Below are positions 6,791 through 17,837 of a stretch of 20,513 bases of DNA, in pieces. Under the pieces are notes generated by a model. That model saw nothing but the letters and a program-made list of their open reading frames with translations, searched no databases and was not told the origin of the DNA. Both the position numbers and the translations under genes were made by a program. Position 1 is the stretch's first letter, and each line of letters opens with the position of its first letter. Origin of the DNA: an uncultured Microcaldota archaeon (GTDB taxonomy: Archaea; Micrarchaeota; Micrarchaeia; Anstonellales; Bilamarchaeaceae); contig CAIXOA010000124.1 in NCBI GenBank assembly GCA_903920925.1, positions 1 through 20,513 of the forward strand. The letters are read 5' to 3'.

Positions 6791-7207
6791 ATGCAGAGAC
6801 GAAGGGAAAGGAGAAAGGTTTACCACGGAAAGATACACAAGAAGAAGAACATGCTCCATGTGCACATCTCCAAGGAGCTCAAGGCGAAGCTGGGCACGAA
6901 GATCCGCGCCCTCCTCGTGAACAAGGGGGACGGCGTGAAGGTGCTCCGGGGCGACAACAGGGGCAAGGCCGGGAAGGTCGCCAGCGTCAGCGTCATGAAG
7001 AGAAAAGTCTACCTGGAAGGCGTGACGGTCCGCAACAGGCGGGGCGTTGAATCCCTCGTCCCGTTCGACCCGTCCAACCTGATGCTCACCGAATTGAAGG
7101 ATTCCCCGTTTAGGAAGGAAATGCTGAAAGGTGCGTCTTCACCTTCAGGCCGCCAGCATGGCGAACATCGCCCAGGCAGCCAGAGGGTGCAACCAGAAGG
7201 TGAATAG
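6791..7207 (+). CDS. rpl24: 50S ribosomal protein uL24 with an element-derived C-terminal tail
   Basis: uL24 initiates large-subunit assembly and carries a KOW motif. Residues 1 to about 114 are a normal archaeal uL24: 'YHGKIHKKKNMLHVHIS', then the KOW stretch around 46-75 ('VNKGDGVKVLRGDNRGKAG'), then 'GVTVRNRRGVESLVPFDPSN'. From about residue 116 to 138 the sequence turns into Ser/Gly/Arg/Gln-rich residues unlike the family. This part is encoded entirely by the palindromic element at 7138-7205. The tail is probably a by-product of insertion of that element across the original stop region. The ATG at 6791 has only a weak Shine-Dalgarno site (GGGGGA). Confidence 0.94.
   Translation: MQRRRERRKVYHGKIHKKKNMLHVHISKELKAKLGTKIRALLVNKGDGVKVLRGDNRGKAGKVASVSVMKRKVYLEGVTVRNRRGVESLVPFDPSNLMLTELKDSPFRKEMLKGASSPSGRQHGEHRPGSQRVQPEGE
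7138..7205 (-). repeat. Palindromic ~70-bp element, copy 1 (uL24/eS4 junction)
   Basis: TTCACCTTC (7138-7146) and GAAGGTGAA (7196-7204) are a perfect 9-bp terminal inverted repeat. Compared with copy 2 (14359-14429), the best match is in inverse orientation. Both then share the terminal repeats, an 11-base internal block (7181-7191 here, TGCACCCTCTG when inverted) and an 8-base block (7156-7163 here, CGCCATGC inverted). The element encodes the uL24 tail, and its right end is the Shine-Dalgarno site of eS4. Strand '-' means opposite to copy 2. Family identity is not known; a MITE- or REP-like element is possible. Confidence 0.75.
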
Positions 7208-7208
7208 A

Positions 7209-7910
7209 ATGGCAAAAAGAGGAAGAAGCAACCATATGAAGCGGCTTGCGGCGCCCAAGGCGGTGCCCATACACGACAAGAAGGCAAGGAAATGGATGGC
7301 CAGGTCGGTCCCCGGCCCCCACGGAACAGAGGGCGCAATCCCGCTCTCCGTCCTTATGCGCGACGTGCTGAAGCTTGCGGACACCCTTTTTGAGGTGAAG
7401 AAAATCCTCAATGCGCGCAAGGTCCTCATCGACGGCGTCGCACGCACCGAGCCCAGTTATCCCGTCGGCCTGATGGACGTCGTCTCCATCCCGGAGGCGA
7501 AACTCTACTACACCATTACGGTGGTACGCGGCAAACTCGAGCCGCACAAGATAGAGGAGAAGGACACCCACCACAAGCTTTTGAGGGTGGTCGGCAAGCG
7601 CACCACGCCCGGCGGGAAGATAAGCATACTTTTCCACGACGGCCGCAACGCCTTCGCCGACGCCCACGTCAAGGTGGGGGACTCCGTGCTCTTCTCGCTC
7701 AAGGACAGGAAAATCGAAAAGCTATTGAAGAGGGGCACGAAGGCGAAGTGCCTGATAGTGAGCGGAAAGCACTCCGGAAAGGAGGCCCAGATAGAGAAGT
7801 TCTTCGAGAGCAAGGAGGGGAGGCCCATGGAGGCCCTCGTGAAGACCAAGGAGGGCGAGGTCCGCACGCTCGCGGATTACCTCTTCATAACCGGTGAGGC
7901 CCATGAATGA
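7209..7910 (+). CDS. rps4e: 30S ribosomal protein eS4
   Basis: eS4 is an archaeal/eukaryotic small-subunit protein with an S4-type RNA-binding domain and a KOW domain. The 233-residue product has 'HMKRLAAPKAVPI' at the N-terminus and 'GPHGTEGAIPLSVLMRDVL', followed by the S4 domain at about 42-104 ('ILNARKVLIDGVARTEPSYP'). The C-terminal half contains 'KHSGKEAQIE'. The ATG at 7209 is 6 bases after GGTG and starts the conserved MAKRG.. end. The frame is open upstream to 7131 only because the palindromic element is open in this frame. It overlaps uL5 by 8 bases. Confidence 0.96.
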   Translation: MAKRGRSNHMKRLAAPKAVPIHDKKARKWMARSVPGPHGTEGAIPLSVLMRDVLKLADTLFEVKKILNARKVLIDGVARTEPSYPVGLMDVVSIPEAKLYYTITVVRGKLEPHKIEEKDTHHKLLRVVGKRTTPGGKISILFHDGRNAFADAHVKVGDSVLFSLKDRKIEKLLKRGTKAKCLIVSGKHSGKEAQIEKFFESKEGRPMEALVKTKEGEVRTLADYLFITGEAHE

Positions 7911-8418
7911 AACCAACCCAATGCGCGGCATCATGATCGAGAAGGTCACCGCGAACATCGGCATCGGCGCAAGCGGCGACCGCCTTGACAACGCGAAGGA
8001 GCTCTTGGAGAAGCTCACCGGCGCAAAAGTGGTGCTCACCCGCGCGAAGAAGAGGAACCCCGTCTTCAAGCTCAAGCCCGGCCTCGAGATCGGCGTAAAA
8101 ACCAATCTCCGCGGCCCCAAGGCCATGGCGTTCCTTGAGAAGTCCCTCGCCGCGAAGAAGAAGGCGCTCAACGCGTCCAACTTCGACAAGTTCGGAAACT
8201 TCTCGTTCGGCATCCACGAATACATCGATTTCCCGGGGGCGAAATACGACCCCAAGATAGGGATGATGGGCTTTGACGTCTGTGTCACGCTCAAGAGGCG
8301 CGGGAAGCGCGTAAGCGAAAGGCGCATAAAGCGCTCTTCGGTGGGCAAGTCCCACCTTATCTCCACGGAGGAGGGAATCGAGTTTGCGAAATCCGCGCTC
8401 GGAATAAAAGTGGAGTGA
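7903..8418 (+). CDS. rpl5: 50S ribosomal protein uL5
   Basis: uL5 binds 5S rRNA in the central protuberance and contacts the P-site tRNA T-loop. The 171-residue product begins '[20 protein letters not shown]', the archaeal form, and carries '[16 protein letters not shown]' and '[18 protein letters not shown]', both family signatures. The ATG at 7903 lies 6 bases after GGTG and overlaps the end of eS4. A GTG at 7894 in frame is the Shine-Dalgarno site itself and is rejected. Confidence 0.96.
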
Positions 8419-8422
8419 TTTG

Positions 8423-8578
8423 ATGGTTGCTACTCCAGACACGAAATTCAAGGGAAGGGGAAAGAGGAAATGCAGGTTCTGCGGCACGTCCCGCGGCCTC
8501 ATAAGGAAATACGGGCTCCAGATATGCAGGAGATGCTTCCGGGAGGCGGGAGAGTCGATAGGATTCAGGAAATACTGA
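8423..8578 (+). CDS. rps14: 30S ribosomal protein uS14, zinc-binding form
   Basis: A short frame codes for 51 residues. It contains '[11 protein letters not shown]' and '[20 protein letters not shown]', which is the archaeal zinc-binding uS14. The four cysteines C17, C20, C35 and C38 form two CxxC pairs that coordinate zinc. The protein sits in the 30S head next to uS3 and uS19. GTGAT just before the ATG can serve as the Shine-Dalgarno site. It lies 4 bases after uL5 and 9 bases before the preferred uS8 start, in its usual position. Confidence 0.95.
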
Positions 8579-8587
8579 GGTGTTATG

Positions 8588-8974
8588 ATGGCAATTGACC
8601 TTTTGGCTGACGCGCTCAACACGCTCAAGACCCACGAGATAAAGGGGGAGGAGAAGTGCGAAGTGCGCGCCTCGAAGATAGTGCGCGAGGTGTTCAAGAT
8701 ACTCGCGGTTAAGGGATACATCTCCGGCTACGATTTCGTGGACGACGGGAGAGGGGGCTTCTTCGAGGTGAAGCTCTCGGGAATGATAAACGACTGCGGA
8801 GTCATAAAGCCCCGCTTCCCGGTGAAGCGGAGCGAATGGGCGAAGACCGAGGAAAGGTTCATCCCCGGCGTCGGGGTTGGCCTGCTCGTGGTCTCCACCC
8901 CCCAGGGCATAATGACGAACACTGACGCCCACAACAGGCAGATAGGCGGAAGGCTCCTTGCCTTCATATACTAG
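8588..8974 (+). CDS. rps8: 30S ribosomal protein uS8
   Basis: uS8 binds the central domain of 16S rRNA (helix 21) and is a known translational repressor of spc-type operons in bacteria; whether it is one here is unknown. The 128-residue product shows 'DLLADALNTLKTHE' at the start, a central 'EVFKILAVKGYISGYDF' and the C-terminal 'GVGLLVVSTPQGIMTN', all characteristic. Two tandem ATGs occur at 8585 and 8588. I chose the second: it is 5 bases from GGTG and gives the family-like M-A-I-D start, the same arrangement as in uS3. Confidence 0.95.
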   Translation: MAIDLLADALNTLKTHEIKGEEKCEVRASKIVREVFKILAVKGYISGYDFVDDGRGGFFEVKLSGMINDCGVIKPRFPVKRSEWAKTEERFIPGVGVGLLVVSTPQGIMTNTDAHNRQIGGRLLAFIY

Positions 8975-8983
8975 GTGCGTGCG

Positions 8984-9478
8984 ATGATAGAAGTCACAAT
9001 CCCGGAAGGAGTGCAGTTCTCCCTCAACGGCAGGACCGCCAGGGCCAAGGGAAAGCTCGGCGAGGTCGAGAGGGAGTTCAAGGGCGCGCCCGTTTCAATA
9101 AAGCACGAGGGCAAGGCCATAAAGGTCTCGTCCGAGGACAAGGCGATCGAGGGAACGGTCGCCTCCCACCTGAACAACATGTTCCACGGCGTGCTGAACG
9201 GATACGAGAAGAAGATGGTCATCCGCTTCGCCCATTTCCCGATGAGCATCGAAATCAAGGCCACCGAGCTCTGGATAAAGAACTTCCTCGGGGAGAAGAA
9301 GCCCCGCAAGGCCAAGATAATCGGAAAGGTGAAGATAGAAGTCAAGGGCCAGGATATCCGCGTCCACGGCCCTGACAAGGAGGCGGTGGGCCAGACCGTG
9401 GCGAACATACGCACCGCCACCCGCATCCGCGAAAAGGACGGGCGGGTCTTCCAGGACGGAATATTCATTGTAGGGTGA
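8984..9478 (+). CDS. rpl6: 50S ribosomal protein uL6
   Basis: uL6 lies at the base of the L7/L12 stalk near the sarcin-ricin loop. The 164-residue product has two similar beta-alpha domains: 'VTIPEGVQFSLNGRTARAKG' opens the first, and 'IEIKATELWIKNFLGEKKPRKA' with 'KGQDIRVHGPDKEAVGQTVANI' opens the second. These are archaeal family features. The ATG at 8984 is 6 bases after GGTG; the upstream in-frame GTG at 8975 belongs to that site. It is slightly shorter than typical members (about 175-185). Confidence 0.95.
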   Translation: MIEVTIPEGVQFSLNGRTARAKGKLGEVEREFKGAPVSIKHEGKAIKVSSEDKAIEGTVASHLNNMFHGVLNGYEKKMVIRFAHFPMSIEIKATELWIKNFLGEKKPRKAKIIGKVKIEVKGQDIRVHGPDKEAVGQTVANIRTATRIREKDGRVFQDGIFIVG

Positions 9479-9483
9479 AACAA

Positions 9484-9837
9484 ATGGTGACGAAGAAAAC
9501 CCATCCATACTTCAACAGGCAAAACTACCGTGGCAAGCACGGCAAGAGGAGGGTGAAGAACACGTGGAGGAAGCCCAGGGGAGTGGACAACAAGAAGAAA
9601 AGGAAGGTGGCGTCCCACGGCGCGAGCCCGAAAGTGGGCTACGGCAACCCGCTGTCCATCAGGCATCTCCATCCAACCGGCCTCCAGGAGGCCCTGGTTT
9701 GCAACCTCAAGGACCTTGAGGGCGCGAAGGGCAAGGTCGCCCGCATCTCCGCTTCCGTCGGGAAGAAGAAGCGCCTGCTCATCCAGCAGAAAGCCAAGGA
9801 GCTCGGCATCCGGACCATAGGCAAGGTGGTATCATGA
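9484..9837 (+). CDS. rpl32e: 50S ribosomal protein eL32
   Basis: eL32 is an archaeal/eukaryotic large-subunit protein. The 117-residue product contains 'HPYFNRQNYRGKHGKRRVKNTWRKP', 'RGVDNKKKRK' and 'SPKVGYGNP', the core signature of the family, then 'HPTGLQEALVCNLKDLE'. Some archaea carry an additional N-terminal domain that is absent here. GGTG at 9474-9477 is 6 bases before the ATG at 9484. The stop overlaps the eL19 ATG (ATGA). Confidence 0.95.
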   Translation: MVTKKTHPYFNRQNYRGKHGKRRVKNTWRKPRGVDNKKKRKVASHGASPKVGYGNPLSIRHLHPTGLQEALVCNLKDLEGAKGKVARISASVGKKKRLLIQQKAKELGIRTIGKVVS

Positions 9838-10268
9838 CCGCACAGACAGTGAAAAGGCTCGCAGCAGACATCCTCGGCGTAGGCGTGAGCAGGATACGCC
9901 TCGACAAGGACAACCTCGCAAAGGTGGAGGAGGCGCTCACGCGCACGGACGTCCGCAACCTTCTGGAAGAAGGGACCGTTTACGCACTCCCGCCCAGGGC
10001 GGGCCACCGCAAAAAGGAGAAGCCCCGCAAGGGCAGGGGAAGCAGGAAGGGGCAGAAGAAGGCGCGCGGCGAGGGCGGCAAGTCCGCCTGGATGGTGCGC
10101 GTGCGCTCCCAGCGCAAATTCCTCGTAGAGCTCGTCCGTGGCGGAGAGCTCCCGAAGGAGCGCAAGCACGCCATATACATGAAGATAAAGGGCGGCGCTT
10201 TCAGGGGGAAGGCCGCGATGAGGGCATACCTTGCAGAAAACAAGATGCTGAAGGAGAAGGTGAAATAG
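9834..10268 (+). CDS. rpl19e: 50S ribosomal protein eL19
   Basis: eL19 forms a bridge to the small subunit in archaea and eukaryotes. The 144-residue product has an N-terminal helical domain ('VKRLAADILGVGVSRIRLD', 'IRKAITREDVR'-like 'EALTRTDVRNLLEEG'), the very basic linker 'GRGSRKGQKKARGEGGK', and a C-terminal helix rich in Lys. It overlaps eL32 by 4 bases. Its stop is followed directly by the uL18 ATG. Length and layout are normal for Archaea. Confidence 0.95.
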   Translation: MTAQTVKRLAADILGVGVSRIRLDKDNLAKVEEALTRTDVRNLLEEGTVYALPPRAGHRKKEKPRKGRGSRKGQKKARGEGGKSAWMVRVRSQRKFLVELVRGGELPKERKHAIYMKIKGGAFRGKAAMRAYLAENKMLKEKVK

Positions 10269-10847
10269 ATGGCAAGAGCAAAAGGTCCAAAATATGAGTC
10301 CGCGTTCCGCAGGAGGCGCGAGAACAAGACCAATTTCGCGAAGAGGCTCGCGCTCGTGAAGGGCGGTCTCCCGCGCATGGTGATCCGCAGGGGCAGCACC
10401 TCCCTCGTCGTCCAGTTCGTGAAATACTCCGAGAAGGGCGACGTGGTGCTCGCGGGCGTGAACTCCGCCGCACTGAAGAAGTTCAAGTGGGCGCCACGCG
10501 CCAACGTCCCCACGGCCTACCTCACCGGCTTGTACGCCGGCAAGCTCGCCAAGAAGAAGGGCGTGAAGGAATTCGTCCTTGACATCGGCCTCTACGCGCC
10601 GGTGAAGAACTCCGTCGCATTCGCCGCGCAGAAGGGCGCGCTCGACTCCGGGCTCTCCGCTTCGCACGGGGAGGGCCTCACGGACGAGGCGCGCATCTCC
10701 GGCACGCACATAGAGGCGTACGCCAAATCGCTGGACGAATCCGAATACAAAAAGAGGTTCTCCAGCTACCTGAAAGACGGCTTCAAGCCGAGGGACTTCG
10801 TTTCCCATTTCAAGGCTTCAAAAGAGGCCATCCTGAAAGAGGCATGA
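10269..10847 (+). CDS. rpl18: 50S ribosomal protein uL18
   Basis: uL18 binds 5S rRNA together with uL5. The 192-residue product is the long archaeal form. It includes 'GPKYESAFRRRRENKTNFAKRLALV' at the N-terminus, 'NVPTAYLTGLYAGKLAKKKG' and 'EFVLDIGLYAPVKNSVAFAAQKGALD', then the C-terminal archaeal extension 'RISGTHIEAYAKSL'. GGTG stands 6 bases before the ATG. Its stop is 4 bases before the uS5 start. Confidence 0.96.
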   Translation: MARAKGPKYESAFRRRRENKTNFAKRLALVKGGLPRMVIRRGSTSLVVQFVKYSEKGDVVLAGVNSAALKKFKWAPRANVPTAYLTGLYAGKLAKKKGVKEFVLDIGLYAPVKNSVAFAAQKGALDSGLSASHGEGLTDEARISGTHIEAYAKSLDESEYKKRFSSYLKDGFKPRDFVSHFKASKEAILKEA

Positions 10848-10851
10848 TACC

Positions 10852-11523
10852 ATGGCAAAGGGAAGAAAAGGAAAGAACACGAGCAAGAGGGAGGAGGTCG
10901 AGCTTCTCGACATAGCCTCCTGGATCCCGCGCACCAACATCGGAAAGAGGGTGAAGGCCGGCGAGATATCCAGCATCGACCAGATTTTAGACGAGGGCAT
11001 CGCAATACTCGAGCCGGAGATAGTGGATTCCCTCATCCCCGAGATGGAGGTCGAGACCCTCGCGGTTAATCCAACGCAGAGGTCCACGGACTCAGGAAGG
11101 AAGATGCAGTTCCGCGCCGTGGTCGTAATCGGGGACAAGAAGGGCCACGTGGGGATAGGCGTGGGCAAATGCGAAGAGGTCAAGCCCGCCCTGGACTATG
11201 CCATGAAGGACGCCCGCAAGAACATGATACACCTGAAGTTCGGATGCGGAAGCTGGGAGTGCAGGTGCGGCCAGCAGCATTCCCTTCCGCAAAAATTGGA
11301 GGGGAAGTACGGCAGCACCATAGTGGTGCTCAAGCCCGCGCCCAAGGGCCTCGGGCTCGCCGCAAGCGACGTGATAAAGAAGGTGCTCAGCATCGCCGGC
11401 CTCCGCGACATCTGGAGTTCCGCCGAGGGATCCACCTCCAACGTCTACAACACGGCCATGGCGACAATAGACGCTCTTGATTCCATCAACAAGAAGAAAC
11501 CCCAACCGGGTGAAACAATATGA
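10852..11523 (+). CDS. rps5: 30S ribosomal protein uS5
   Basis: uS5 is a small-subunit protein at the mRNA entry and important for decoding accuracy. The 223-residue product has the double-stranded RNA-binding domain at about 84-145: 'RKMQFRAVVVIGDKKGHVGIG', then the archaeal 'GCGSWECRCGQQHS' (cysteines 132, 137 and 139). The C-terminal domain has 'GLGLAASDVIKKVLSIAGLRDIWS'. The start ATG at 10852 is a Kozak-like 'ACCATGG' without a strong GGTG. The stop overlaps the uL30 ATG. Confidence 0.96.
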   Translation: MAKGRKGKNTSKREEVELLDIASWIPRTNIGKRVKAGEISSIDQILDEGIAILEPEIVDSLIPEMEVETLAVNPTQRSTDSGRKMQFRAVVVIGDKKGHVGIGVGKCEEVKPALDYAMKDARKNMIHLKFGCGSWECRCGQQHSLPQKLEGKYGSTIVVLKPAPKGLGLAASDVIKKVLSIAGLRDIWSSAEGSTSNVYNTAMATIDALDSINKKKPQPGETI

Positions 11524-11954
11524 CTATCGCAATTGTAAGGATAAGGGGAAGGAGGAGCATCGACCCGGACATAAAGAAGACGCTCGAGATTCTCTGCCTG
11601 TACCGCACCAGCCAGTGCGTAATAATGGAGGACACGCCCTCGCTCCGCGGGATGCTCCAGCTCTGCAAGGACTACGTCGCATTCGGCCCCGTAAAGGAGG
11701 AGACCATCGCCGCGCTGATGCAGAAGAGGGGCGAGAAGGGCAGCAGGAGGCTTTCCGAGATAATGGAGTCCGGGGAAATCGCGCAGGCCGCGAAGAAAAT
11801 CGCCCACGGCGAAAAAGTGAAGAATTTCGCCGACCGGGTATTCCGCCTCCACCCGCCCCGCAAGGGCTACGCCGACATAAAGAAGCAGGCTTCCCTGGGC
11901 GGGGACCTCGGCAAGCGGGACGACATGGACGACCTGATAAAAAGGATGATGTAA
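11520..11954 (+). CDS. rpl30: 50S ribosomal protein uL30
   Basis: The 144-residue product has the long archaeal form of uL30: 'AIVRIRGRRSIDPDIKKTLEIL' with the conserved RG motif, 'LRGMLQLCKDYVAFGPV', then a C-terminal extension ending in 'KRDDMDDLIKRM'. GGTG lies 7 bases before the ATG, inside the end of uS5, with which it overlaps by 4 bases. uL30 is a large-subunit surface protein near 5S rRNA. No irregularity seen. Confidence 0.95.
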   Translation: MTIAIVRIRGRRSIDPDIKKTLEILCLYRTSQCVIMEDTPSLRGMLQLCKDYVAFGPVKEETIAALMQKRGEKGSRRLSEIMESGEIAQAAKKIAHGEKVKNFADRVFRLHPPRKGYADIKKQASLGGDLGKRDDMDDLIKRMM

Positions 11955-11970
11955 TTCCAAAGGTGCTCAC

Positions 11971-12384
11971 ATGACAAGAAGACAAGCCAAAAGGAAAACC
12001 AAGATGAGGGGCTCGCGCTTCCACGGCTTCGGCAACGTGAAGAACAAGAGGGGGAAGGGCTGCCGGGGCGGAGTGGGCCGTGCCGGCCTCCACAAGCACA
12101 AGTTCTCCTGGACCACCAGGTACAACCCGGACTACCTGCGCGCGGACGGCTTCGTCGCCCACACGTTCCGCGACGTCCCGACCATGAACCTCTTCGAGGT
12201 GAGCAACCTCCTGGAAAAAGGGGCCATGGAGAAGAAGGACGGAAAGTTCCACTTCGAGTTCAAGGGCAAGATCCTCGGCTCCGGCGGAATCCGCCACCCA
12301 ATAGTATTAAAAGCGCTATCCTGGAGCAAGATAGCCGAGAGGAAAGTGAAGGAATCGGGCGGGGAGCTTTCCAAACTAGAGTGA
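11971..12384 (+). CDS. rpl15: 50S ribosomal protein uL15
   Basis: The 137-residue product has the glycine- and arginine-rich N-terminus 'KMRGSRFHGFGNVKNKRGKG' and 'RGGVGRAGLHKHKFSW', which threads into 23S rRNA, followed by a C-terminal globular part ('IRHPIVLKALSWSKIAERKV'). These match archaeal uL15. GGTG is 5 bases before the ATG. It is followed by secY after 7 bases, the near-universal arrangement. Confidence 0.96.
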   Translation: MTRRQAKRKTKMRGSRFHGFGNVKNKRGKGCRGGVGRAGLHKHKFSWTTRYNPDYLRADGFVAHTFRDVPTMNLFEVSNLLEKGAMEKKDGKFHFEFKGKILGSGGIRHPIVLKALSWSKIAERKVKESGGELSKLE

Positions 12385-12391
12385 TGAAAAA

Positions 12392-13816
12392 ATGGGAGCG
12401 ATAATAGATTTCATACACAAGCTTTCCACGTACCTTCCGGAGATAAAGGCACCCGTGAAGCTCCCTAGCATAAAGGAGCGCTTCCTCTGGACCGGAATAG
12501 CGCTGCTCCTGTTCTTCGTGATGTACAACGTCACGGTCTTCGGAGCGCAGCAGCACGCCGGGGGCTTCGACTTCCTCCAGATGATTACCGCTTCCAAGGT
12601 GGGCTCGCTGCTCACCACGTCCATCGGCCCCATAGTGCTCGCATCCATTTTCCTGCAGCTCTTTTCCGGCGCGGGCCTCATCGACCTTGACCCCAAGAAC
12701 CCCGATCAGAGGCAGAAATTCCAGGAGGTCCAGAAGGTGCTGGCGCTCCTGGTGGCCCTGGCCGAGGCAACCATATTCGTAATGACCGGCAGGGTCCCGC
12801 TCGTGCAGACCACCTTCCTTGACCCGACCCTCCTGGCGGCCCTGGTCATAGCGCAGATCGCCCTGGGTTCCGCCATCGTCCTTTACATGGACGAGATAGT
12901 GACCAAATACGGAATCGGCTCCGGCATCTCCCTTTTCATCGCGGCGGGTGTCTCCTTCTCCATTCTCGGGGGCGCCATCACCCTGTTCATAGGCGAAGGG
13001 GGCATCGCCTCCGTGGTCGCCGGAGGTGGAGCGGAGGCCATCCCCAACGCGTTGCTGGTGCTGCTCCCGCTCCTGGTGACGGTATTGGTGTTCCTTGTGG
13101 TATGCTACTGCGAGGGCGTCAAGGTTGAAATCCCGCTTGCCTACCAGCAGGCCCGCGGCATGGCGCCCAAGCTTCCGCTCAACTTTTTCTATCTGTCCAA
13201 CATTCCCGTCATCTTTGCATCCGCCCTCCTCCTCAACCTGCAGCTTTTCGCGGGCGGCCTTGGGGGAAAGAGCTTCATGGTGGGCGACTTCAACGTCGTA
13301 GACGCAATCGGCTACGTTGACTCCACCAGCCACCTGCGCGACGGGCTTCTCTATTTCTTCACCCCGGTATACGGCGGCAACACCCTCTCCCAGATAAACT
13401 TCCTCATGAACGGCGTCACGCCCATCTTCGGCATCCCCGAATGGGTCCATGCCATCACGTACGTATTGTTCCTCTCATTGGTCGCCGTCCTATTCGGGAT
13501 GTTCTGGGCCGAGACCTCCAACATGGACACGAAGGGGATGACGGACCAGCTCATGCAGTCCGGCATGCAGGTCCCCGGCTTCAGGCGCGACCCGCGCATC
13601 CTTGAAAAGGTCCTTGACAAATACATCCCGCCCCTCATAATCCTCGGTTCTTTCAGCGTCGGCCTTCTCGCAGGCCTTGCCGACCTCACCGGCGCCCTCG
13701 GCACCGGAACCGGCATACTGCTTACCGTAAGCATCTTCTACCGCACCTACCTGCAGATGAAGAGGCAGAGGATGCTCGAGGCGATGCCGTTCCTCGGAAA
13801 TCTCTCGGGTGAATAA
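12392..13816 (+). CDS. secY: Preprotein translocase subunit SecY
   Basis: SecY is the membrane channel through which secretory proteins pass and from which membrane proteins enter the bilayer. The 474-residue product has about ten hydrophobic segments. It includes a first transmembrane segment at about 31-51, the 'YGIGSGISLFIAAG' region in the middle and the conserved last segment with 'GALGTGTGILLTVSIFYRTY', which matches archaeal SecY. 'GLIDLDPKNPDQRQKFQEVQK' is a cytosolic loop typical of Archaea. The ATG follows uL15 by 7 bases, preceded by GTGATGAA. It is within the normal length range, slightly long. Confidence 0.96.
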   Translation: MGAIIDFIHKLSTYLPEIKAPVKLPSIKERFLWTGIALLLFFVMYNVTVFGAQQHAGGFDFLQMITASKVGSLLTTSIGPIVLASIFLQLFSGAGLIDLDPKNPDQRQKFQEVQKVLALLVALAEATIFVMTGRVPLVQTTFLDPTLLAALVIAQIALGSAIVLYMDEIVTKYGIGSGISLFIAAGVSFSILGGAITLFIGEGGIASVVAGGGAEAIPNALLVLLPLLVTVLVFLVVCYCEGVKVEIPLAYQQARGMAPKLPLNFFYLSNIPVIFASALLLNLQLFAGGLGGKSFMVGDFNVVDAIGYVDSTSHLRDGLLYFFTPVYGGNTLSQINFLMNGVTPIFGIPEWVHAITYVLFLSLVAVLFGMFWAETSNMDTKGMTDQLMQSGMQVPGFRRDPRILEKVLDKYIPPLIILGSFSVGLLAGLADLTGALGTGTGILLTVSIFYRTYLQMKRQRMLEAMPFLGNLSGE

Positions 13817-13818
13817 GA

Positions 13819-14427
13819 ATGATAATAATAATGGGCCTTCCCGGCGCAGGCAAATCCTCGGTCCTCGCCGGCGTAGAAAATATGGGCTGGAAAATCCTGA
13901 ACTACGGAACGCTCATGTTCGAGATTGCGCAGAAAGCCTACAAGCTCACCAACCGCGACGAGATGCGCAAGCTCCCCGTGGAGAAGCAGAAGAAGGTCCA
14001 GGAGGAGGTCGCGCTCCGCCTTTCCAGGGAGAAAGGGAAGGTAATCCTCGACACCCACTGCTCCATCAGGACAGCGAAGGGCTACCTTCCCGGGCTTCCG
14101 TTTTCGCTCCTGGAGAAGCTTCCCGTGGACTCGCTGGTGCTCATAACCGCAACCCCGGAGGAGATAATGGGCCGCCGCAAGAGCGACGAGACGCGCGTGC
14201 GCGACCCGGAGCCCATAGAATCCGTGCGAGAACATGACCTGATGAACAAGTCCCTCCTCGCGGCCTACGCGGCCCACCGCGGCTGCCCGGCGCGCATAAT
14301 CTACAACCACGACGGAAAACTGGAGGAAGCGGTGCGCCAGTTGCGCGAAATGTTGGATATTCACCTTCAGGCTGCACCCTCTGAGCCAAGCGGTGCGGCA
14401 TCCGCCATGCAGGCAGCCAGAAGGTGA
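13819..14427 (+). CDS. adkA: Archaeal adenylate kinase with an element-derived tail
   Basis: It converts AMP and ATP to two ADP, keeping the adenylate pool balanced. The N-terminal P-loop 'GLPGAGKS' is at residues 6-13. 'VILDTHCSIRTAKGYLPGLP' is the AMP/second-substrate region, and 'RRKSDETRVRD' is the lid, as in archaeal AdkA. The family body ends around residue 180 ('LREMLD'). Residues 181-202, Ala/Ser-rich and unlike AdkA, are encoded by the palindromic element. The ATG follows secY after 2 bases. The stop (TGA 14425-14427) sits in the element's right terminal repeat. Confidence 0.93.
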   Translation: MIIIMGLPGAGKSSVLAGVENMGWKILNYGTLMFEIAQKAYKLTNRDEMRKLPVEKQKKVQEEVALRLSREKGKVILDTHCSIRTAKGYLPGLPFSLLEKLPVDSLVLITATPEEIMGRRKSDETRVRDPEPIESVREHDLMNKSLLAAYAAHRGCPARIIYNHDGKLEEAVRQLREMLDIHLQAAPSEPSGAASAMQAARR

Positions 14428-14429
14428 AT
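14359..14429 (+). repeat. Palindromic ~70-bp element, copy 2 (adk/DUF106 junction)
   Basis: ATTCACCTTC (14359-14368) and GAAGGTGAAT (14420-14429) are a perfect 10-bp inverted repeat. The stem extends past one A-A mismatch to GGCTGC (14370-14375) pairing with GCAGCC (14413-14418), 16 pairs in all, around a 37-base centre. The centre holds GCGG...CCGC, a small inner stem. Blocks shared with inverted copy 1 lie at 14373-14383 and 14403-14410. The right end supplies the Shine-Dalgarno site of the DUF106 gene and the stop codon of adk. Confidence 0.78.
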
Positions 14430-14435
14430 GAACTC

Positions 14436-15239
14436 ATGATAACGACCGAAAACTATTTCTGGATAGTCACCATCCTGGCCCTCTTCTACACCGTGGCTGT
14501 CCGCCTCATACAGATGAGGCTGATGGACCCGGAGAAGAGCAAGGAGCTCCAGAAGCGCATGAACGACCTGAACAAGGAGTATCTCTCCGCGCTCAAGTCC
14601 GGCAACAAGAAGCGCATGGAATCCATCCAGGAGGAGCAGAACAAGCTCATGCCCGAATTCAACAAGCTCATGATGGGCCAGCTCAAGGTGATGGGCGTCG
14701 TTGTCGTCGTTTTCCTCGCATTCATGTACCCCGTGAACGTGCTCGACCCCTTCGTAACCGACGACCAGGCGTTCGAGCTTACCTCCCTTTCCTCCGTGCA
14801 AGGGATGTGGTGCGGCTCGTTCGCCGCCCGATGCGCCTCCACAGGCCCCTGGCTCGTCCAGGTGACCGCCTACTCCGGAACTTCCGAGAAAGGCACCAAC
14901 AGCACCTATATCTATTGCAACCAGGAGGCAGGAATACTTCCGTCCCCGGTGATGAAGGGCACCCTTTTCCCAATGACAACTGATAAAAAAGTTTACACAC
15001 AAAATGAGAACGCCACGGTGTGCATAACCGCACCCGATGGCACCGACCGCGCGGTGGGAAAGACCGATTCGGGCACGTGGTTCATGGTTCCGCTCCCATT
15101 CACCATACCCGTGCTGAACGCAAATGCGATAAACGGGGCTAACGTCTGGTTTATCGTGGTTTCCATAATATTCGGCCTGATATTCTCGTTCGTGTGGGGG
15201 AAAGTCCATAAGAAGAAACCAAAAGGTGAAGCCAAATGA
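14436..15239 (+). CDS. DUF106/EMC3-like membrane protein insertase with a Cys-bearing ectodomain
   Basis: DUF106 proteins are archaeal relatives of YidC/EMC3/Oxa1 that help insert membrane proteins. The 267-residue product has TM1 at about 8-24, a charged coiled-coil stretch (27-75, with 'LQKRMNDLNKEYLSALKSGN'), TM2 at about 83-100 and TM3 at about 236-254. This is the family order. Between TM2 and TM3 lies an outside domain of about 130 residues with four cysteines (126, 133, 161, 196) and possible glycosylation sites (N155, N192), larger than the short loop usual in the family. I chose the ATG at 14436; an in-frame GTG at 14424 lies in the Shine-Dalgarno site. Confidence 0.85.
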   Translation: MITTENYFWIVTILALFYTVAVRLIQMRLMDPEKSKELQKRMNDLNKEYLSALKSGNKKRMESIQEEQNKLMPEFNKLMMGQLKVMGVVVVVFLAFMYPVNVLDPFVTDDQAFELTSLSSVQGMWCGSFAARCASTGPWLVQVTAYSGTSEKGTNSTYIYCNQEAGILPSPVMKGTLFPMTTDKKVYTQNENATVCITAPDGTDRAVGKTDSGTWFMVPLPFTIPVLNANAINGANVWFIVVSIIFGLIFSFVWGKVHKKKPKGEAK

Positions 15240-17173: not shown

Positions 17174-17773
17174 ATGAAACCCCGCCACATCTATATTCAA
17201 CAGGCTGTGAGGCACCAAGTAGCACGCGAAGCTGTCGCCTGCAGGTCAATGGCGCCTCCGTGGGAAAGGTCTTTCTGGAAGGTAGAGATACCTATCCGCA
17301 CGAAGGGCGAGGCAAAAGTGCCTGAACCTGCACAAAAGCCGAGGGTACCATCCAGCCGCAATATAATCTTCTCATCCATTGACGACATCAAAATCATATC
17401 AAGTTTCCGCAGACCCGATTTTGATCAGGAAGAAGAGCCAAAGAGGTCGATACGAGTCCTCACTTTGCAGGACCTGCTGCGTGGCGAGGACTGGAAAGTA
17501 AAAGAATGGGAAAAGATGGTACAGGGAGATAAGGCGTTAATAGCGCTTTCATGGGTCGCAGGAGCGGCTTCGGCCACCATCTGCCTTGTGGATCTGGCAT
17601 CGAAAGCACAGGCCGGCGCATCTTCCTCCGCGATAGGGGTATCTATCGCACTGTTGGCTGGAATTGCCGCCGTTCTCATCAAGGTAGTCAAATACTTCAA
17701 AAAGACTAAATTGCAGGATGAACAAGAATTGCAAAAAGCTAGGGAAGAATTAAACGCGAAGGGGGAGATTTGA
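17174..17773 (+). CDS. Small two-helix membrane protein, function unknown
   Basis: I do not recognise this family. The 199-residue protein has a basic, Pro-containing N-terminal half (residues 1-65), an acidic-basic middle, then two hydrophobic segments at about 121-141 and 150-172 separated by a short Ala/Ser loop, and a charged helical tail (175-195). This suggests a helical hairpin in the membrane with both ends on the same side. The ATG at 17174 is at leaderless distance from its TATA box. The last 18 coding bases overlap the 3' end of the convergent tRNA-Ser, and the stop codon lies inside the tRNA gene. The gene is less GC-rich than its neighbours. Confidence 0.6.
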   Translation: MKPRHIYIQQAVRHQVAREAVACRSMAPPWERSFWKVEIPIRTKGEAKVPEPAQKPRVPSSRNIIFSSIDDIKIISSFRRPDFDQEEEPKRSIRVLTLQDLLRGEDWKVKEWEKMVQGDKALIALSWVAGAASATICLVDLASKAQAGASSSAIGVSIALLAGIAAVLIKVVKYFKKTKLQDEQELQKAREELNAKGEI

Positions 17774-17837
17774 ACTCCCAATCCCTTGCGGGACATGCTT
17801 TCCAGGCATGCGCACTACCGGGTTATGCGACCTCCGC
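17756..17837 (-). tRNA. tRNA-Ser (anticodon GGA)
   Basis: The minus strand folds into a full 82-nt class II tRNA. The 7-bp acceptor stem GCGGAGG/CCTTCGC has one G-U pair. There is a D arm with stem GCA/TGC, a 5-bp anticodon stem CATGC/GCATG with loop CTGGAAA, a variable arm TCCC-GCAA-GGGA, and a perfect T arm GGGAG-TTCAAAT-CTCCC. The anticodon GGA (positions 17801-17803) reads UCC and UCU. The long variable arm and D-arm layout fit serine. CCA is not encoded. Its 3' end overlaps the preceding plus-strand gene by 18 bases. Confidence 0.95.

Follow-up and report, generated by a model that had tools for sequence, protein, structure and literature searches.

A 20,513-nt stretch of DNA from an uncultured Microcaldota archaeon (contig CAIXOA010000124.1; hereafter the window) carries two copies of a palindromic element of about 70 bp, 7.2 kb apart in a ribosomal-protein operon, and we found that they belong to a dispersed family with at least 23 copies at 21 sites in the five genomes of one genus. 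Copies are present in some species and absent from others, lie in coding as well as non-coding DNA, and often place a Shine-Dalgarno (SD)-like arm behind a native GTG or SD motif. The element is probably a non-autonomous mobile palindrome, like miniature inverted-repeat transposable elements (MITEs) and the Rickettsia palindromic elements (RPE), that is tolerated by restoring the ribosome binding site. Judging from the genomes searched, it appears to have spread, partly in recent times, through this one genus of Micrarchaeota, and it was found in that genus alone. The two window copies, their arms and the genes that they join are located as follows:

7138..7205, + strand: copy 1, whose 3′ arm is the SD of eS4; match of the second covariance model (R2) at 7137-7205 (+), 73 bits
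7138..7146, + strand: 5′ stem arm of copy 1, TTCACCTTC, part of the covarying stem
7196..7204, + strand: 3′ stem arm of copy 1, GAAGGTGAA, which is the SD before the eS4 ATG at 7209
6791..7207, + strand: uL24 (Pfam Ribosomal_L26), whose frame passes through copy 1 to the stop TAG at 7205-7207
7209..7910, + strand: eS4 (Pfam Ribosomal_S4e), the gene 3′ of copy 1
14359..14429, − strand: copy 2, in the orientation opposite to copy 1; R2 match on the − strand, 73 bits
14420..14429, + strand: outer stem arm of copy 2, GAAGGTGAAT as read on the + strand, which is the SD before the ATG at 14436
13819..14427, + strand: adenylate-kinase-like gene (adk; Pfam AAA_17), whose frame crosses copy 2 and stops within its GGTGA
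14436..15239, + strand: EMC3/TMCO1-like membrane protein (DUF106 in the first-pass annotation), the gene 3′ of copy 2

The first-pass annotation, made from the letters of the window, had delimited both copies correctly, and the blocks that it reported as common to them (TGCACCCTCTG, CGCCATGC and GGC(G/A)GCC) are present in both once copy 1 is inverted. It had also described a perfectly complementary left end; the pairing stands, over 9 bp in copy 1, but the outermost base there is C and not A. When copy 1 was inverted, the two copies aligned end to end with 53 of 70 columns identical and one 2-nt gap, and no clear similarity was seen across the few flanking bases aligned. With copy 2 as the query, blastn retrieved copy 1 (E 2e-7) and also a third copy that lies on a different contig (E 6e-11). 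Copy 1 makes up roughly the last 23 codons of the uL24 open reading frame (ORF), including the stop, and the end of the adk ORF with its stop (AGA AGG TGA) comes from copy 2. In relatives, uL24 stops at the insertion point and adk ends earlier, at GGAGTGA. The proteins of relatives thus finish before the element, which rules out that the copies are conserved C-terminal tails of uL24 and adk, or that the two junctions are conserved as coding sequence. Chance likeness between SD-like sequences is ruled out by the copies found genome-wide and by the empty sites described below.

The annotation had proposed looking for a small dispersed repeat with a covariance model in the genome and its relatives, and such searches did turn up further copies. 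A first model (R1), built from four copies, was run on 59 genomes and its matches were confined to the window's genus; R2 was built from 20 copies. A family search and a phylum search, both with stricter filters that lose weak matches (the phylum search scored the best 16 candidates per genome), gave matches in 5 of 43 and 5 of 301 genomes, always the same five of the genus, and in none of the 296 phylum genomes outside it. These five are the metagenome-assembled genome (MAG) of the window (G000; 899,595 bases in 197 contigs, of which the window is C124; 87% complete) and the other genomes of the genus (G001-G004), whose relatedness was taken from sequence identity and not from a tree. With R2, ten places were found in G000, nine in G002, two in G004, and one each in G001 and G003; the 23 copies make 21 sites because two pairs of copies occupy the same site in two species. 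The total, with one strand counted per place, is a lower bound, since the genomes are incomplete and scoring was confined to the best 150 of the 390-609 first-look candidates in each. It includes the weak match G002 C59 (L245, about 1337-1461), a CAAACC...GGTTTG hairpin nested in another copy just 5′ of a gene start. A weak R1 match in G000 (C179, E 6.7) was dropped, and a Sphingomonadales record that emerged from a pattern scan of genome contigs scored 14 bits with the model and was taken as chance.

Copies are mostly 67-69 bp long; two of 115-117 nt (L023:1501-1617 and L035:981-1095) have extra core sequence, and the L023 one has a further hairpin. Structure was evaluated on an alignment (A5) of 20 copies, from which C60 and G004 C47 (long inserts) and C59 were left out, and in which the median pairwise identity is 58%. 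The consensus, written in the sense of copy 1, reads nTTCACCTTnTGGCCGCCTGCATGGCGGAnAnnGCCC...GGnCAGnGGGTGCGGCCAnAAGGTGAAn and folds into an outer stem, up to 18 pairs long and with a bulged U, around a conserved core, GCC-UGCAUGGCGGA ... GGGUGC. In the named structure 85.6% of cells pair, and 67 cells are double changes, compared with a mean of 26.7 (sd 3.8) in shuffled alignments and 12-19 in slid versions of the structure. Double changes were found in 13 of the 18 outer-stem pairs; support for the inner hairpin is weak (63.8% paired). Variation between copies is highest at the outermost arm bases, as in the arm pairs TTCACCTTC/GAAGGTGAA, TCACACCTC/GAGGTGTGA, ATACACCTC/GAGGTGTAT, GTGAACCATATG/CATATGGTTCAT and GCAAACCG/CGGTTTGG: the stem arms vary from copy to copy, yet stay complementary. 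In the 14 copies of 67 nt, frame 3 (HLLAACxADxAxxAxGCGxKV-like) is free of stops in all, where column shuffling predicted 3.1 (P 0.021, with the kinship of the copies uncorrected), whereas stops close frame 1 in 11 of them and frame 2 in 4. Over all three frames of 22 copies (all except C59, the set also used for the end tags below), 39 of 66 frames are open, compared with 39.7 in shuffles. The stop-free frame 3 may point to former coding use, as with the Rickettsia elements.

That the repeat is mobile and can insert between the genes of an operon had been suggested from the window, and comparison of sites between species supports both ideas. An aligned empty counterpart exists in a congener at 16 of the 21 sites (at C124b and C59 the exact junction is unclear); the sites without a clear one are C132, C60, G002 C34, G002 C24 and G001 C13. 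The uL24/eS4 junction is filled in G000 and G002 and empty in G001 (GGTGC^TTAGGATGG), G003 and G004, and the adk junction is filled in G000 only, its flanks aligning with the empty sites of G002, G001, G003 and G004. At ftsZ the element is present in G004 and absent from G000 and G001 (G001 junction AAGGTGAATA^GATATGG); next to ftsZ, a VapB-like gene is filled in G000 and empty in G004 and G001; and at EF-2 the site is filled in G003 and empty in G002 and G004. The site of an arginase-family gene is empty in G003 and G004, and that of C59 in G001 (partly aligned). The left flanks of G002 C24 (L039) and G001 C13 (L032) contain stretches of ~40-110 nt that match several other places in G001 or G004 at 72-90% and may be RNA genes or another dispersed repeat.

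The 5-formyltetrahydrofolate cyclo-ligase gene of G000 provides the case within a coding sequence. It carries a 69-nt in-frame insert between GTGAAGG and GGAGAAG, flanked by the direct repeat GTGAAGG, that is absent from G001, G002 and G003 (no G004 match was found for the gene). The 23 extra residues are missing from four aligned relatives and the Pfam match is retained. A search of solved structures with this protein confirmed the family and nothing beyond; a structure prediction had a mean pLDDT of 36 and was not used.

Some of the movement appears recent. G000 and G002, each the nearest relative of the other among the five by adk identity (92%), have one filled site in common; six sites filled in G000 (cyclo-ligase, adk, V-ATPase E, eS27, C191 and secDF) have empty counterparts in G002, and the reverse is true of four sites filled in G002 (C57, glyoxalase, C82 and Hsp20). 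Occupancy in two species was found at only 2 of the 21 sites. At the one common to G000 and G002 the element differs at 7 of 69 positions, and the flanks at 51 of 400 (left) and 33 of 400 (right). At the one site tested, element and flanks have thus diverged to a similar extent, as would be expected if the element has no strong function, and this argues against a regulatory role under strong conservation. At secDF, G000 and G004 carry the element, their closest relatives by identity (G002 and G001) have an empty site, and G003 has another short sequence there. The two secDF copies are 80% identical (14 of 69 positions differ) and share the same unusual arms, so that the element was either lost precisely twice or inserted twice at the same position. 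Beside the element site downstream of secDF, a 14-bp palindrome, GTAACCATGGTTAC, was seen in all five genomes (L026, L033, L175, L177 and L178), with one base different in G001.

Position relative to start codons was then compared among sites. An ATG lies 0-4 nt past the 3′ arm, with the element in sense orientation, at 11 of the 21 sites: the uL24/eS4 junction and those of the PAP2 gene, V-ATPase E, eS27, C57, glyoxalase, C82, the arginase family, C59, EF-2 and ftsZ. Gene names come from Pfam scans (the C57 product has no Pfam match, and C82 and C191 were not scanned), and distances from frames of at least 60 codons, except for eS27, C82 and C59, which were read from the sequence. At two further sites (C124b and C130) the element is reversed and the gene lies on its other side, at 6 nt for the adk/next-gene junction and 3 nt for the VapB-like gene. 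As a background, 162 of 1968 GGTGA motifs in G001 lie 2-10 nt ahead of an open ATG, and at that rate 11 of 21 has a binomial probability of 2e-7; a preference for GGTGA alone is therefore insufficient, and survival or true SD targeting must contribute. Genes that have the element between SD and ATG are probably still readable through the replacement site. Because the uL24 and adk frames end in or next to the new SD, coupled translation could persist there. When ten leaders were folded, the new SD was largely paired in eight, partly paired in C57 and open in C103, so that uncoupled translation may be weakened.

Ten SD sites have an empty counterpart, and at nine of them a GTG stands in the native sequence just 5′ of the insertion point (eS27 has GATGA); counted by eye, a GTG lies within 10 nt of the element in 11 of 20 left flanks. 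We then compared arms with flanks in 20 copies (all but G002 C13 and G004 C38, which are at shared sites, and C59). The right arm matched its own left flank better than it matched the flanks of other copies (sum 95 versus 81.1, sd 4.0, p 0.0007), with a slight match to its own right flank as well (p 0.037); for the left arm there was no direct match of this kind to its own flanks in this set (p 0.79 and 0.98). Several left junctions are short palindromes of the GTGA-N2-3-TCAC type. The limits of any target duplication are ambiguous because the arm resembles the target: the data fit arms that are the ends of the element with a duplication of 0-2 bp at an arm-like target, and they also fit a duplication of 5-7 bp that makes up the foot of the stem. 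Cyclo-ligase and C57 are compatible with either parsing; relatives have native bases unlike the arm at uL24 and eS27, which favours arms as element ends.

On these grounds we propose that an enzyme acting in trans would recognize the folded strand and insert it near a sequence that contains GTG, duplicating little or none of the target, and that selection would purge most insertions elsewhere. Insertions into the spacer between SD and ATG would survive since the 3′ arm offers a replacement SD with nearly the former spacing, and since folding of the hairpin would hold the old SD roughly as close to the ATG as it lies without the element. Within operons, a ribosome coming from the upstream gene could read through and stop in or beside the new SD, as predicted for uL24 and adk, which would keep translational coupling. 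A more speculative addition, which we consider rather unlikely, is that the anti-SD-like 5′ arm serves as a guide by pairing to the GTG/SD motif in the target, insertion taking place a few nt behind and the target being copied into the arms or selected by them. If this were true, the arms would be programmable by, and specific for, ribosome binding sites, and each insertion would bring its own repair. Small, close-packed genomes offer mobile DNA little space, and landing between SD and ATG while returning a ribosome binding site would be a way in. The empty and filled sites form a natural series for measuring the effect of a strong hairpin between SD and AUG on archaeal translation, and the concerted differences between arms make structure-based or guided recognition by an enzyme a testable question.

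Several observations weigh against a mobile palindrome tolerated in this manner. A Y1 transposase was detected in none of the five genomes (the control was positive in 6 of 14), and no separated half-elements marking a parent transposon were found in the stretches searched (838 kb of G001 and 720 kb of G002). All five genomes are fragmented, incomplete MAGs, each 85-92% complete. Eight of the 21 sites are not beside a start codon (the cyclo-ligase coding sequence, the 3′ ends of a PUA-protein gene, secDF and Hsp20, a promoter-like region at C191, G002 C34 and C24, and G001 C13), and the bias in orientation towards the downstream gene, 11 versus 2, is modest (two-sided 0.022). Target duplication is inconsistent, being 7 bp or 2 bp at cyclo-ligase and not clear at ftsZ, secDF or Hsp20, and the match between arm and flank may be partly due to GTGTGA arms common to several G002 copies. 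Not every measure of covariation stands out: further pair types numbered 34 versus 30.6 and were matched in 73 of 500 shuffles, and the shuffle control leaves the kinship of the copies in place.

A cis-regulatory RNA, in which the hairpin would sequester the SD of the genes of a regulon and open on a signal bound by the unpaired core, would account for the covarying stem, the conserved core, the SD position at 11 of 21 sites with its 11 to 2 orientation, and the SD that is largely paired in 8 of 10 folded leaders. Such an element should keep its position and orientation; however, only 2 of 21 sites were found filled in two species, one copy lies within a coding sequence, and the copies at C124b and C130 are reversed at SD sites. 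In addition, 8 of 21 sites have no adjacent start codon, the named genes are functionally varied, and the element diverges like its flanks at the site compared. An Rfam scan of four sources at gathering thresholds returned tRNAs only, and the matches that two copies gave under permissive settings were microRNA- and snoRNA-like, at chance level and well short of gathering scores. (A tRNA-Ser (GGA) gene lies in the window at 17755-17837 on the − strand.) All in all, a cis-regulatory RNA as the explanation of the family seems improbable to us.

Matched changes in the two arms, with few unpaired intermediates, could also arise by template switching between arms during replication, which would correct the palindrome while copies spread through rare replication or repair events, and this process would fit with no enzyme having been found. 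Correction of this type should, however, erase the bulged U and the frequent mismatch (columns 57 and 11/64, respectively), which persist across copies; moreover, the core sequence between the arms is conserved and recent copies in two lineages require an active process. We give this explanation a slim chance.

The family would resemble repetitive extragenic palindromic (REP) elements if it were moved by a Y1 transposase of the IS200/IS605-like (RAYT) type, through a single-stranded hairpin, a left-end target paired with a guide and no duplication. The GTGA-N2-3-TCAC palindromes at left junctions, a right arm like the native target, little or no duplication at several sites and a possible precise loss at secDF are in line with this mode, but all five genomes lack a detected Y1_Tnp, and the tags GTAG and CGTC occur in 0 and 3 of 22 copies, which makes it very improbable. 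A hunt for recombinases gave no convincing candidate, although it used crude patterns that prove nothing, with no profile search of other transposase or recombinase families. The exact pattern had no match among viral contigs and copy 2 none among plasmids by blastn. Finally, an archaeal mRNA intron cut out by the splicing endonuclease is hardly credible: exact removal of the 69 nt would restore cyclo-ligase, but two copies are reversed relative to the gene that they precede, several lie in non-coding DNA, and no bulge-helix-bulge was seen by eye at the foot of the stem. The mobile palindrome that restores the ribosome binding site remained our preferred explanation, and we compared it with known systems.

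Integron attC sites carry the R boxes RYYYAAC and GTTRRRY at their ends, and 0 of 22 copies have such boxes at the ends of the element. Suyama et al. reportedly described in 2005 palindromic repeats with coding potential in Methanocaldococcus jannaschii. These repeats, as they are cited in the accessible parts of PMC2229807 and PMC2996958, are likewise archaeal and fused into protein genes; compared by description only, they belong to a different phylum, and the micrarchaeal element is often at start codons. The accessible literature on archaeal and DPANN palindromic repeats, a coverage outside which many subscription journals fall, yielded no description of such an element, and the available parts of the MITE and palindrome papers PMC10969869, PMC2229807, PMC3733652 and PMC2996958 describe none that rebuilds an SD.

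Like the MITEs Correia/NEMIS, RUP, ERIC and Sulfolobus SM, which are short and non-autonomous, have inverted-repeat ends and stable hairpin transcripts, and are polymorphic in presence and absence, the micrarchaeal element is dispersed, shorter than 500 bp, bounded by terminal inverted repeats and too short for a transposase gene. In contrast to them, its ends are not fixed, its arms vary in concert and no parent insertion sequence was found in the G001 and G002 stretches searched. MITEs are described as typically AT-rich in the parts of PMC10969869 available, and the GC content of the element is 0.60 (0.57 for G001 stretches). REP elements of RAYT transposases are also dispersed palindromes, some of them within genes (PMC3733652, in part), but the micrarchaeal element has no GTAG tag at the foot of its stem (0/22) and its genomes have no detected Y1 transposase (0/5). 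It lies outside both RPE and REP elements as these are defined in the accessible parts of PMC2229807, PMC3733652 and PMC10969869; the CGTC expected at one end is not a tag here, as the 3 of 22 copies indicate. The RPE of Rickettsia and Wolbachia, according to the same accessible parts of these three papers, are palindromic, occur in genes and between them, insert in frame into coding sequences and have no known dedicated transposase, and the micrarchaeal element was likewise found in frame inside one gene and as the C-terminal tails of uL24 and adk. By description, the two are set apart by size (105-146 bp for RPE in the available part of PMC2229807, mostly 67-69 bp here), by the archaeal host and by the spacers between SD and ATG, in which half of the micrarchaeal sites lie.

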